Part shown: positions 126 through 7,283 of the stretch, one piece after another
How positions within the stretch are numbered: position 1 is the first letter of the stretch
Layout: each line of letters begins with the position of its first letter
NCBI GenBank assembly: GCA_002753735.1
Contig: PEAN01000006.1
Span: 1 to 64,000, forward strand
DNA length: 64,000 nucleotides
Source: Magnetococcales bacterium DCbin4
Lineage (GTDB): Bacteria > Pseudomonadota > Magnetococcia > Magnetococcales > UBA8363
Direction: 5' to 3'
Position numbers and translations under genes: made by a program
Notes under the pieces: generated by a model
The model's input: the letters and a program-made list of their open reading frames with translations, nothing else
What the model was told of the DNA's origin: nothing
The model's database searches: none

Positions 126-2180
126 CTACTTGATGCGCATTCCTGGTTGCGCCCCGGAATCGGCAGACAAGAGAAACAAACCTCCCGCCCCATCGCCAGC
201 CGCAAGCACCATCCCTTCCGAAACACCAAACTTCATCTTTCTTGGTTGCAGATTGGCCACCAAGACCACCAGGCGTCCCAATAATTGTTCCGGCATATAA
301 GCGGACCGAATCCCTGCCAGAACGTTGCGAACCCCCAAAGGGCCGACATCCAGAACCAATCGTAACAATTTGTCAGCCCCTGTCACCGTCTCAGCCTGGA
401 TGACTTTGGCCACCCGCAAATCGACCGCCATGAAGGAATCCATGTCGATGGTCTGAGATTCCGATGGTTTTTCATCAACCCGCTTCTCGGTCGCGACTGG
501 CAGCACCGGGACAGGGGAGGGGGCGGAATGGGCAGAAGGAGGGGTCTCTTCCATGGATGCGGCGACCATGGCGGCGACCTTTTTGGGGTCAACCCGTTGC
601 ATCAACGGACGAAATGGCTGAATGACGGTATCGGTGATCGGGAGCAGGGTGGCCGTCCAGTTCATATCCTGAAGGTTGAGAAAGACCCTGGTCTTTTCCG
701 CCATGGAAGGCAATACCGGATGCAACAAAACCATCAACAGCCGAAAAAGATTCAAGGCGACGGTACATGTCTCCTGCAACTCTTTCAGGTGGTTATCCCG
801 TGCCAAGGTCCAAGGTGCCTTTTCTTCGACATAACGGTTGGCATGATCCGCCAGGTTCATGATGGCCCGCATGGCTCGCGCAAATTCACGCTCATGATAA
901 AACTCGGCGATGGTTTTCATTTCATCCAAAAACAACTTGAACAGCCCCCGATCTTCAGGATAGTCCCGGGATAATTGCCCCTGAAAATGTTTATGGATGA
1001 AGCCGGCGGTACGCGAAGCCAGGTTGACGACCTTGCCCACCAGGTCGGAATTGACACGTTGGATGAAATCATCAAGGTTCAAATCGATGTCATCCACCCC
1101 TTTTCCCAGTTTGGCCGCATAGTAATAGCGCAGATATTCGGGATCGAGTTGTTGCAGGTAACTCCTGGCAGTAATGAAGGTTCCCCGGGATTTGGACATT
1201 TTTTGGCCATTGACGGTCAGGAAACCGTGGGCAAACACCCCGGTCGGGGTCCGGAATCCCGCCCCCTTGAGCATGGCAGGCCAGAAAAGGGTATGGAAAT
1301 ACAGGATATCCTTGCCGATGAAGTGATAGACCTCCACCTGATCGGGTTGACGCCAATAGCGGTCGAACTCAATGCCATGTTGCTTGAAGTAGCTCCATGA
1401 CGCCGCCATGTAGCCGACCGGGGCATCCAGCCAGACATAAAAATATTTGCCCGGGGCATCGGGAATTTCAAACCCGAAATAGGGACCATCCCGGGAAATG
1501 TCCCAGGCTTTCAAACCTTCGTTGAACCATTCAGACAGCTTGTTGGCCATCTGCACCTGCAAGGCACCCGAATGGGTCCATTCTTTCAGGAAGGATTCAA
1601 AATTGCTCAGATTGAAAAAATAATGTTCCGATTCCCGTTCTTCAGGGGGAGTACCGCACAGGGAACAACGGGCCTCATTGAGGTCAAGCGGTGAATAGGT
1701 TGCCGAACAAACTTCGCAGGAATCTCCATATTGGTCGAGCGCGCCACAGGAAGGACAACTGCCACGGATGAATCGATCCGGCAGGAAAATGCCGTCCTTG
1801 GCACAATAGGCTTGCATGACCGAAGCAGTATGGATGTGTCCCGCCTTGCGGTTGGCCAGATAGATTTCTTCACTGAGGATTTTGTTTTCCTCAGAGTTGG
1901 TGGAATGGTAATGATCGAATCCGATCAGAAAGTCCCGGAAGTCGGTTTTATGTTCAACGTAGATTCTCTCGACCAGTGCTTCCGGAGTGATCCCCTCGTT
2001 GCGTGCGCGGATCATGATGGGAGTTCCATGGGTGTCATCGGCACAAAAGTAGAGGCAATTCCGACCCCGAATTTTATGAAATCGGACCCAGATGTCGGTC
2101 TGGACATATTCCACCAGGTGACCCAGATGAATGGATCCATTGGCGTAGGGGAGGGCGCTGGTAACCAGGATGGGACGCAT
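126..2180 (-). CDS. metG: Methionyl-tRNA synthetase
   Basis: Cytoplasmic class I synthetase charging tRNA-Met with methionine. The N-terminus carries the HIGH-type motif (HLGH, near residue 19). Two zinc-binding CxxC pairs follow in the connective insert (CPSCG, CEVC, then CSLCG, residues about 140-175), and KMSKS lies near residue 328. After an anticodon-binding helical domain and a Pro/Ala-rich linker, residues from about 580 form a C-terminal Trbp111/EMAP-type tRNA-binding domain starting at the DLRVAKV segment. That makes it the long, dimerising form; 684 aa is normal for this type. It is transcribed alone, with a MITE copy behind its stop and a kilobase without genes in front. Confidence 0.97.
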
Positions 2181-2839: not shown

Positions 2840-2867
2840 ATTTAACATAATACATCTTATGCGACCA
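2840..2867 (-). other. dif-like XerC/XerD recombination site 1
   Basis: Read on the minus strand this is an 11-bp XerC-type arm (TGGTCGCATAA), a 6-bp centre (GATGTA) and an 11-bp XerD-type arm (TTATGTTAAAT). The XerD arm is identical to that of the Escherichia coli dif site as I remember it, and the inner seven bases of the XerC arm also agree. The 11-6-11 layout is exact. It is inverted relative to a second site 61 bp away, with the XerC arms facing inward. No Xer recombinase gene is in the window. It is either the chromosomal dif or a copy carried by an integrated element. Confidence 0.75.
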
Positions 2868-2928
2868 ACTGCATGGTTAACGTGCGTGACCTTGTTACTG
2901 TAAGTTATCGGCAAAGATTTTGGGGGAA

Positions 2929-2956
2929 AAGTCGCATAAGGCACGTTATGTTAAAT
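2929..2956 (+). other. dif-like XerC/XerD recombination site 2
   Basis: An 11-bp XerC-type arm (AAGTCGCATAA), centre GGCACG and a XerD-type arm (TTATGTTAAAT) in perfect 11-6-11 spacing. The XerD arm is identical to that of site 1 and to E. coli dif, while the central hexamer differs from site 1 (GATGTA). Strand exchange between the two would therefore leave mismatches. A single strand of this locus can fold into a hairpin through the paired arms, with the centres unpaired. Confidence 0.72.
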
Positions 2957-3225: not shown

Positions 3226-4956
3226 TTGATAAAAGATATGGGTAACACAAATATGGATTATTCCTCAAGCAAGAACGGAAGCCATATCCTGGATGGAAAC
3301 GGAAGTTCCCAGCATTCGGCGTCGGAACCGAACATGCATGATGTAGCCAATCTTCTGGCCCGGGTCGATAAACTCAACCAACTGGGAATTGCCCTTTCCT
3401 CAGAACGGGATACCCATAGACTATTGGAAAACATCCTTCTTGGGGCGAAGGATCTGACCAATGCCGATGCGGGTACCATGTATACCAAAACGGCGGAAAA
3501 CACCTTGAAGTTTGAGATCATCCGTACTGATTCGCTCAAAATCGCCATGGGTGGCACAACGGGTGTCAGCATCCCCTACCCCGCCCTTCCCCTCTACAAG
3601 GATGGACAGCCCAACCTGCAAATGATTGCGGCGGCGGCGGCTCTGCGCGATTGTACCATCAATATTCCCGATGCCTATGAAGCGGAAGGATTTGATTTTT
3701 CAGGAACCCGAAAATTCGACCAGATGACGGGATATCGTTCCAAATCATTTTTGACGGTTCCACTGAAGAATCATGAAAATGAAATCATCGGCGTATTGCA
3801 ATTGATCAACGCCAAGGATTTCAACACGGGTGCCATCAAATCATTCTCCGCCGCCGACCAACAATTGGCCGAATCCCTGGCATCCCAGGCGGCCATTTCG
3901 ATGACGAACCAGCGTCTGATTGAAAACCTGAAAAACCTGTTTGAAGCATTCATTCAGGCCATCGCCAACGCCATCGACGATAAATCGCCCTACACCGGTG
4001 GCCACTGTGAACGGGTTCCGGTATTGTCGGATATGCTGGCCCGAGCGGCGGCGCGCAGCAATGTCGGGGATTTGAAGGATTACAACCCCACGGAAGAAGA
4101 TTTCTATGAACTTCGCATCGCGGCGTGGATGCACGATTGCGGCAAGGTGGTCACCCCTGAATATGTTGTTGACAAGGCCACGAAACTTGAGACAATTCAT
4201 GATCGGATCCATACCGTGGACGCCCGATTTGAAGTGTTGAAACGTGACGCCGAAATCGAGTTTCTGAAGCAGAAGATCGCGGCACTGCAACAGGGGGATC
4301 CCGGCGGGATTGCCGCCCTGGAGGAGACCTTGCAGCAAAATCTGGCGCAAATCAAATCGGATCAGGCTTTTGTCCGGGAGTGCAATATCGGGGGTGAATT
4401 CATGTCCCCTGAGCGCCAAAACCGGATCAAGGCCATCGGGATGCGTCAATGGGTCAATGGCGTTGGGGAGCAGGTGAATTTTCTGACCGACAACGAAATT
4501 GAAAATTTGAATATTCCCAAGGGGACCCTGACGTCCGAAGAGAGACAAGTCATCAACCACCATGTGGTGGCAACCAAGAACATGTTGAAAAAACTCCCCT
4601 TCCCCAAACATTTGAGCCGGGTTCCCGAAATGGCGGGGTCACATCACGAAATGATGAACGGCAAAGGCTATCCCGATGGCCTCACCCGTGACCAGATGTC
4701 CATTGGCGCCAGAATCATGGCCATTGCCGACGTTTTTGAAGCCTTGACTGCGAACGACAGACCCTATAAACCGGCAAAAACCCTCTCGGAGTCGCTGAAA
4801 ATCTTGGGGTTCATGAAAAAGGATCAACACGTCGATCCAGATTTGTTCAAGGTATTCATCGACGAAAAGGTCTACATGGAATATGCCCAAACCTATCTGG
4901 ATCCCAAGCAGATGGACGAAGTTTCTCCTGAAAAAATTCCAGGTTATGATCCCTGA
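3226..4956 (+). CDS. GAF and HD-GYP domain protein, probable cyclic-di-GMP phosphodiesterase
   Basis: The N-terminal 45 or so residues look disordered. A GAF sensory domain follows (about 50-220), then an HD-GYP phosphohydrolase domain. Metal-ligand motifs are all present: GGHCERV, MHDCGK (near residue 303), INHHV, HHEMMNGKGYP (near 474) and IADVFEAL. HD-GYP enzymes degrade cyclic-di-GMP. Between the HD motif and the GYP motif there is an insertion of about 110 residues with a coiled-coil-like stretch, longer than in the minimal domain. There is no receiver domain. The start is TTG at 3226 or ATG at 3238. A CHASE2 protein follows 65-98 bp downstream on the same strand, depending on its start, so the two may be co-transcribed. 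Confidence 0.9.
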   Translation: MIKDMGNTNMDYSSSKNGSHILDGNGSSQHSASEPNMHDVANLLARVDKLNQLGIALSSERDTHRLLENILLGAKDLTNADAGTMYTKTAENTLKFEIIRTDSLKIAMGGTTGVSIPYPALPLYKDGQPNLQMIAAAAALRDCTINIPDAYEAEGFDFSGTRKFDQMTGYRSKSFLTVPLKNHENEIIGVLQLINAKDFNTGAIKSFSAADQQLAESLASQAAISMTNQRLIENLKNLFEAFIQAIANAIDDKSPYTGGHCERVPVLSDMLARAAARSNVGDLKDYNPTEEDFYELRIAAWMHDCGKVVTPEYVVDKATKLETIHDRIHTVDARFEVLKRDAEIEFLKQKIAALQQGDPGGIAALEETLQQNLAQIKSDQAFVRECNIGGEFMSPERQNRIKAIGMRQWVNGVGEQVNFLTDNEIENLNIPKGTLTSEERQVINHHVVATKNMLKKLPFPKHLSRVPEMAGSHHEMMNGKGYPDGLTRDQMSIGARIMAIADVFEALTANDRPYKPAKTLSESLKILGFMKKDQHVDPDLFKVFIDEKVYMEYAQTYLDPKQMDEVSPEKIPGYDP

Positions 4957-5054
4957 GCGCCCCATCAAGGTTGCCATGTATTTTCCCCTTCCAATCAGCA
5001 GGGTTGCATCTGGATCCATGATTGCCGACGGTATTTTCCAGTGAGGGGGATTTT

Positions 5055-7283
5055 GTGATTCACTGGCAGACGGGCCGATATCTGTTGCTGATCGGAACCA
5101 CCATTCTTTTCCTGGTCCATGGTGCCGGTGCCTTTCGCCTGCCCTTCCTGGAGCGCCTTGAATCGATCTACTACGATTTCAAGGTGCGTCATAGTGCATC
5201 CAATTCCAAGGATTCCCGGATTGTCATCATCGATATCGATGAAAAAAGCCTGGCGGGATTGGGTTCCTGGCCCTGGCCGCGTGACCGACTGGCAACCTTG
5301 GTGGATACCCTGTTCGATCATTATCACGTCGGCGTGTTGGGCTTCGACATGGTTTTTTCCGAAGCGGATGCCTCTTCGGGTTTGCCCTACCTGGAATCGC
5401 TGGCCAAAGGACCCTTGAGTCAGGATTCCATCTTCCTGACCCAGTTTCACAAGCTTCGCCTCACCTTGGATCGAGATCGAACCTTTGCCCAAAGTTTGCG
5501 TGATCGGCCAGTCATGCTGGGATTCAACTTCATGCAAACCTCATTTTCCGGGCTGGCCGATTCGGGCAAACTGCCACCTCCGATCATCACCTTGCATGAA
5601 CTTGGGCATGATGACATCAACGCATTCAAGGCTTTTGGTTATTCATCCAATATTGCAGAGATCGAGGATGCCGCTTCCGGCGCCGGATTTCTCGACAATC
5701 CGATGGTCGATTCCGATGGTGTTGTCCGGAACATCCCTTTGTTGCAAGTATTCAATGGTGCATTGTATCAATCCTTTTCTCTGGGGATCATCCGAGCCAT
5801 TCTCGGCGATCCCCCATTGACCCTGGGATTTCGTCCCAACGGTCGGCAAAATGCCAAAGAAACCTCTTTGGATTGGATTGCCCTGGGTCAACACCGAATT
5901 ACCGTCGATCCCCAGGGCGGAATATTTGTCCCCTACCGCGGCAAACAAGGGAGCTTCCCGTACTTTTCCGCCATCGATATTCTTGAACGAATCCCCGAAA
6001 AACAATCCCTTGATGCCGCCATTGTGCTGATTGGATCTTCCATTGGCAGCGAGTTGCGCCGACCCATCATCACCCCTTTTCAGCAGGGATTCCCAAATGT
6101 CGAAATTCACGCCAACATCATCAGCGGCATGTTGGATGGGACCTTTAAAAGCCGACCGGCACTCTATCCATGGACCGACGTCGCCCTGTTGGCGATCATT
6201 GGTATTGTATTCACATTGTTTTTCCCGCGGATTATTCTGATCTGGCGCTTTTCCGTGGTCTTCGTGTTTTCATGGGTGTTGCTGGCCGTCAATTTTTACG
6301 TTTGGCAAAGCTGGGACTTGCAGGTGCCATTGGTTCCGGCGCTGCTGTTGATGTTGCATCTGACATTCATCGACACTGCGTTTGAATGGTTTGGCGTGTC
6401 ACTGAAACGTAACAAAATGTGCAACAGCTTTGGGAAACACCTTTCGATCTCAATGATCGACGAACTGGTCCAGACCGGACATCTTTTGTCAACGAGCAGC
6501 GAGCAGCGCGAAACCACGGTGGTCATGGTGTCGGTACGCGACTTTTACCGATTGGCACACGATCTCAGTCCCGGGCAGTTGGAGCAATGGATCCATGGTT
6601 TCCTGACGCCATTGACCGAGATCATTCATCAATACCGGGGAACCCTGGGCCAGCACCATGGAGCGTCGATCCTCGCCTACTGGGGAGTGCCGGTTGATGA
6701 TGCCAAACACGGACGTAATGCCCTGTCTGCGGTCATGGCCATGATTGCCAAAATGGAAAAACTTGAAGATGAGTTTCAAATGCGTGGCTTGCCTGTCGTC
6801 AAGTGTATCTACGCCATTCAGACCGGTACGGTGACCTCCGGTGTCATGGGATCAGATTTTCATCGTGAATTCAAAGTCCTTGGAGAACCTGTCCAACAGG
6901 TGCAATCGATGATTTCCCTGGTTGAGGGCTATTCCACCCTCGTATTGGTGGGGAAAAGGACGAAGGCATCGGTTTCAGATATGGTTTTTCGGGAATTGGA
7001 TCTGATCGTTCTGGAGGAGTCGGATGAACCGGTATCCATCTATGAACCTGTCGGATTCCGGGATCAGGTGGGTGCCGAGAAGAGTTCACGTCTTGAATTC
7101 TATCACAAGACCATTGCCCAGTTCCGCAGAAAGGAATGGGATCTGGCGGAACAGGGATTCAAGAAAATGTTGCAGAAGGATCCAGAAGATCGGCAGTGTG
7201 AAATCTACCTGACACGGATCCGCCGGTTCAGGAAAACACCGCCTCCGATGGATTGGAATGGCACCTGCCGCCCCCCCGGATAG
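5055..7283 (+). CDS. CHASE2 sensor protein with a degenerate class III cyclase domain
   Basis: An N-terminal membrane helix is followed by an extracytoplasmic CHASE2 domain (containing SRIVIIDIDEKSL and GLGSWPWPR), then two or three membrane segments around residues 375-440. The C-terminal domain has the class III adenylate/guanylate cyclase fold (YRGTLGQHHGASILAYWG; GTVTSGVMGS). The family's two metal-binding Asp residues appear replaced, by Ser in VVMVSVRDF and by Ala in HHGASI, and the Asn/Arg of the VNLASR motif is gone (VQQVQS). Catalysis is therefore unlikely and a regulatory role probable. I prefer GTG at 5055 because AGGGGG lies five bases upstream; TTG at 5022 is the longer alternative. 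A short helical tail follows the cyclase domain. Confidence 0.88.
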   Translation: MIHWQTGRYLLLIGTTILFLVHGAGAFRLPFLERLESIYYDFKVRHSASNSKDSRIVIIDIDEKSLAGLGSWPWPRDRLATLVDTLFDHYHVGVLGFDMVFSEADASSGLPYLESLAKGPLSQDSIFLTQFHKLRLTLDRDRTFAQSLRDRPVMLGFNFMQTSFSGLADSGKLPPPIITLHELGHDDINAFKAFGYSSNIAEIEDAASGAGFLDNPMVDSDGVVRNIPLLQVFNGALYQSFSLGIIRAILGDPPLTLGFRPNGRQNAKETSLDWIALGQHRITVDPQGGIFVPYRGKQGSFPYFSAIDILERIPEKQSLDAAIVLIGSSIGSELRRPIITPFQQGFPNVEIHANIISGMLDGTFKSRPALYPWTDVALLAIIGIVFTLFFPRIILIWRFSVVFVFSWVLLAVNFYVWQSWDLQVPLVPALLLMLHLTFIDTAFEWFGVSLKRNKMCNSFGKHLSISMIDELVQTGHLLSTSSEQRETTVVMVSVRDFYRLAHDLSPGQLEQWIHGFLTPLTEIIHQYRGTLGQHHGASILAYWGVPVDDAKHGRNALSAVMAMIAKMEKLEDEFQMRGLPVVKCIYAIQTGTVTSGVMGSDFHREFKVLGEPVQQVQSMISLVEGYSTLVLVGKRTKASVSDMVFRELDLIVLEESDEPVSIYEPVGFRDQVGAEKSSRLEFYHKTIAQFRRKEWDLAEQGFKKMLQKDPEDRQCEIYLTRIRRFRKTPPPMDWNGTCRPPG

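Follow-up and report, generated by a model that had tools for sequence, protein, structure and literature searches.

Two dif-like Xer recombination sites lie close together and in opposite orientation in one intergenic region of Magnetococcales bacterium DCbin4, which raises the questions of which one is the chromosomal dif and what the other is for. In the window (the whole stretch of DNA analyzed, 64,000 nucleotides), the two 28-bp sites at 2840-2867 and 2929-2956 are mutually inverted: their XerC arms point inward, and the 28-mers are separated by 61 bp. The features of the locus are as follows.

126..2180, minus strand: metG (methionyl-tRNA synthetase), left neighbour of dif; Pfam tRNA-synt_1g (E 4e-149) and synteny
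2840..2867, minus strand: predicted primary chromosomal dif, TGGTCGCATAA GATGTA TTATGTTAAAT, 18/18 specified positions; XerC arm TGGTCGCATAA 2857-2867, centre GATGTA 2851-2856, XerD arm TTATGTTAAAT 2840-2850
2868..2928, no strand: spacer of 61 bp, its length in 10-bp register with relatives, its sequence unconserved across species
2929..2956, plus strand: second, putatively accessory dif-like site; XerC arm AAGTCGCATAA, centre GGCACG, XerD arm TTATGTTAAAT; 18/18 arm positions
3226..4956, plus strand: GAF-HD domain protein, right neighbour of dif; Pfam GAF and HD_5, and synteny

The first-pass annotation had described two inverted 11-6-11 sites with inward XerC arms and unlike centres, 61 bp apart. 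This was confirmed by a re-scan, and 100 dinucleotide shuffles of the window gave no dif-like match. At ≤2 mismatches, the whole genome (4.52 Mb, 96% complete) contains only these two matches; at 3 mismatches one more appears, compared with 2 for a control pattern. Searches of the genome and of relatives found neither a scattering of the motif nor a better dif elsewhere, and in this respect the first-pass reading stands. A mobile, gene-carrying and multiple module of the Acinetobacter pdif type was rejected, because the genome has two sites only and no gene lies between them. The hairpin that the pair could form is only moderately stable relative to shuffles (z = -2.0).

To place the locus, 48 genomes of the class Magnetococcia, most of the compared genomes being metagenome assemblies, were sampled, and a dif match was found in 46. 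Protein searches and fetched loci show that metG and the GAF-HD gene are the usual neighbours of dif across the class, indicating that dif has kept its place throughout it, as one intergenic locus per chromosome conserved in relatives. A GATGTA or GATATA centre linked to metG is common to the class; GGCACG is no common dif centre there. In the complete relative G038, a single contig of 4,719,581 bp that is probably Magnetococcus marinus MC-1, the GC skew changes sign at 2.280-2.315 Mb and dif lies at 2.304 Mb. The site at 2840-2867, with centre GATGTA, is on sequence grounds the chromosomal dif, its terminus position being read in G038. The earlier proposal that one of the two sites is dif is thus borne out by the class-wide metG linkage and the skew flip.

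The genome encodes XerD, scoring above its cut-off, FtsK-gamma, and an XerC-like protein for which XerC is the best equivalog, yet below the cut-off (292 vs 335 bits). Contig 11 adds a third recombinase, XerC/XerD-like and 311 aa long, which is probably mobile; it was rejected as a dedicated partner of the pair because only 3/48 genomes of the class have one. Elsewhere in the class, G005 carries on contig 88 a second dif with centre TTAACA, away from metG and beside Fic-like and PIN-like genes, perhaps on a plasmid or genomic island.

The inverted second site is present in 18 genomes: both sites were read in 17, and in G020 the contig ends within the second site, after the first site and a spacer of 32 bp. 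All same-genus genomes with the locus assembled have the inverted partner, as does every assembled-locus genome of one clade of three genera in a metG+HD tree (support 84/95). A separate lineage, G015, also carries the pair and falls apart in the tree; two changes suffice to explain the distribution, the pair of G015 being apparently independent. Most lineages of the class have a single full dif. Every two-site locus in the class shows the XerC-inward geometry, and no direct or XerD-inward pair was found there. The second centre is unlike dif and ends in RCG in 6/7 same-genus (g1) genomes and in f6. Both sites have identical centres throughout the third genus and in G047 and G015, so unlike centres are unnecessary for the paired arrangement.

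Identical centres are also what gene conversion would leave, and an inverted duplication of dif, neutral or slowly decaying and homogenized in this way, was considered. In G047, the inverted repeat (4987-5101) runs ~14 bp past each dif site (GTCTCGTCTCTGGA), and it looks as though a recent inverted copy had been made of dif together with its flank. Both the extended repeat and the identical centres of G047 fit such a duplication. Every clade member that has the locus retains the pair, however, although the spacers are randomized, and in two families the second centre still ends in its own CG, which is unexpected under neutral decay. Phasing of the spacer length, described next, is equally unexpected, and we consider neutral duplication distinctly unlikely.

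The spacers of the 18 genomes measure 30, 31, 32, 40, 41, 42, 50, 52, 61 or 80 bp, and all 18 lengths equal 0, 1 or 2 modulo 10, that is, they follow ten-bp steps. The period-10 vector length is 0.88 and the best-fit period is 9.9. When lengths were shifted by ≤7 bp at random, none of 20,000 trials over all genomes reached 0.88; with each distinct length entered once, P = 0.00035-0.00085. The lengths come from related species and are not fully independent in these statistics; the 32-bp spacer of G020, read separately, fits the pattern. A shared spacer motif was also sought, and the sequences could be aligned only among close relatives, being unalignable between most species. Divided by 10.5 bp, the distances between centres (58-60, 68-70, 78-80, 89 and 108 bp) come out close to half-integers; by this arithmetic the site dyads would face roughly opposite sides. 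The phased distance suggests that two Xer dimers, whose binding is predicted, act as one assembly.

Phasing is not predicted by the main rival reading, in which the two sites are independent heterospecific difs, each recombining with its sister copy, the second being a redundant dimer-resolution site and the unlike centres serving only to bar cross-recombination. The near-perfect arms of both sites here agree with that reading, as do the unlike centres of f6 and of all g1 genomes but one; Vibrio cholerae chromosome II, moreover, uses a dif2 with centre CGTGCG (PMC3089051). Other lineages, however, have identical centres, several relatives have XerD half-sites only, and the second site of G045 combines a degraded XerC arm (CGCAACA) with a perfect XerD arm. 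We regard a redundant second dif as unlikely.

The half-sites form a pattern of their own. Relatives with a single dif carry seven exact TTATGTNAAAT XerD arms ≤150 bp from dif, in six genomes. This corresponds to 7 in 12.5 kb near single difs; the remainder of the loci, 267 kb, holds 1, and no copy lies at 150-700 bp from dif in single-dif loci. All seven point away from dif, and the pairs orient their XerD arms in the same way. What recurs is thus an XerD arm that faces outward, in some cases accompanied by an XerC arm. Dif plus half-site geometry occurs at 11/25 in the class and 0/234 outside it, where, per a 120-genome sample, only about one fifth of genomes match the strict dif pattern.

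The first-pass annotation proposed the footprint of an integrative element that exploits Xer, or an attP-like hairpin, with CTXphi as the parallel. The attP1 and attP2 sites of CTXphi are likewise dif-like, opposite in orientation, ~90 bp apart and unlike in their centres (PMC3089051), and phages encoding Zot are present in this genome as well as in some relatives. The search for filamentous-phage genes elsewhere thus found Zot-type phages, but a dif-like scan around the Zot loci revealed no convincing site and no link to the pair. The pair itself sits in the conserved metG/GAF-HD intergenic region, where housekeeping synteny is intact, no phage genes adjoin it, and inheritance across the clade is vertical. 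An insertion between hybrid dif sites was likewise not seen: there is no element between or beside the two sites, and the clade inherits the pair. A single-strand hairpin gives no reason to expect phasing. The footprint reading is largely refuted and must be considered very improbable. In another genome of the class (G036 contig 190, position 3774), a single dif-like site with centre TTTCGA lies among repressor-like and tail-fibre-like genes and is possibly an Xer-using phage element.

An invertible 61-bp segment, switched by Xer as a form of phase variation, had also been suggested. The inverted sites would permit it, the canonical-centre site is on the metG side in G000, G043 and G045 and on the HD side in G041, G044 and G046, and the assemblies of G020 and G024 break at dif. 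Such breaks, however, are expected at inverted repeats regardless, and the spacer has the same orientation in every close pair that can still be aligned (G041/G046, G020/G022 and G021/G022; all assemblies). The ~59-108 bp that separate the centres leave very little length for intramolecular synapsis by a tyrosine recombinase. The centres are also unlike, and we agree with the first reading that this speaks against inversion. The switch finds no support in the assemblies, and we hold it to be very unlikely.

Among 398 Pseudomonadota, the pair pattern was found in 11 genomes, all in this class, and 20 dif loci from other Pseudomonadota, read directly, showed no second site and one inward-facing half-site. 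In a scan of 84,980 species, this kind of pair turned up in Magnetococcales and, as dif modules, in Acinetobacter and a relative. Seven other genomes had it too; among their listed ORFs, no phage neighbours were obvious. In Pseudomonas anguilliseptica and a Pseudomonas MAG, the same oxidoreductase-like gene has an inverted dif pair at its end, with a spacer of 60 bp and TGTGAG as the second centre. No phage genes are obvious there, and this is likely an independent double dif. Isolated inverted dif-like pairs occur in Piscirickettsiaceae/Methylophagaceae, Desulfarculales, Chlorobiaceae, a gammaproteobacterial MAG and Porticoccus (L065, L072, L076, L085 and L087; spacers 54, 51, 73, 21 and 32). 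In the Acinetobacter and Alkanindiges loci (L063-L112), many Acinetobacter pdif pairs are separated by just 26-78 bp, an AT-rich and mostly homologous stretch that contains a terminator-like hairpin (e.g., CCTAGGCACTGGCCTAGG); they form gene-free C modules of 26-27, 44-46, 65 and 75-78 bp. Since these spacers are mostly homologous, their discrete lengths are no independent test of phasing. Dif surveys covering Proteobacteria and the open-access literature on duplicated or paired dif describe no such pair, which is weak evidence.

We propose a native double dif, to which we give an even chance: the GATGTA site would resolve chromosome dimers, and the inverted second site would be a selected accessory site that binds XerC and XerD in helical register with dif. 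Two XerCD dimers would most likely form one two-site complex with an XerD arm outward on each side. At a single dif XerD faces one side only, whereas at an XerC-inward inverted pair it would face both. FtsK comes along both chromosome arms; at the pair it would meet XerD first either way and stop or activate, the second site facing FtsK that arrives from the XerC side of dif. FtsK-gamma activates XerD through direct contact (PMC5052618). The short-range inverted orientation may guard the pair from deletion and, together with the unlike centres, would prevent the second site from recombining with dif. FtsK arrival has no obvious need of phasing, and the role of FtsK may therefore be unconnected with the phased complex. 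More tentatively, the locus may represent a dif class of two inverted, helically phased Xer sites that presents XerD first to FtsK on both arms in a higher-order complex undescribed for dif. Counted against the native double dif are the period of 9.9 rather than 10.5 bp, the identical centres in some genomes and the single-dif lineages.

The parallel with known Xer systems drawn in the first-pass annotation is correct. The locus resembles E. coli-type dif (XerC/XerD/FtsK) in its 11-6-11 site, its XerD arm TTATGTTAAAT, its terminus location (in G038) and the accompanying genes; it differs in having a further, inverted site at a phased distance. CTXphi has two inverted sites within ~100 bp as well, but its centres are longer (12 and 6-7 nt), its XerD arms are degenerate and it is a phage genome, whereas the pair here has 6-bp centres, perfect arms and clade-wide synteny without a phage. 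Acinetobacter C modules between pdif sites are also inverted, with internal XerC arms, unlike centres and in some cases very short lengths (26-78 bp); they are mobile, many per genome and built on related AT-rich spacers, in contrast to one fixed chromosomal locus with non-homologous spacers. In cer/psi with PepA/ArgR, a core recombination site is joined by neighbouring sites that give the synaptic complex its shape, and in Tn4430 TnpI-bound repeats act as such accessory sites beside the core. Unlike in these systems, the accessory element here is itself Xer-site-like and inverted.

As far as the sequences tell, distances that vary by single DNA turns favour a recombination complex of two parts over the scar of a virus. 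Inverted dif-like pairs are thus not always scars of phages, a caution for their annotation. Dif is customarily treated as a single 28-bp site, whereas one branch of the magnetotactic Magnetococcales bacteria carries a mirror-image second dif and conserves the two sites at whole-turn steps. This clade is a natural experiment on the control of FtsK direction, XerD contact and synapse geometry.
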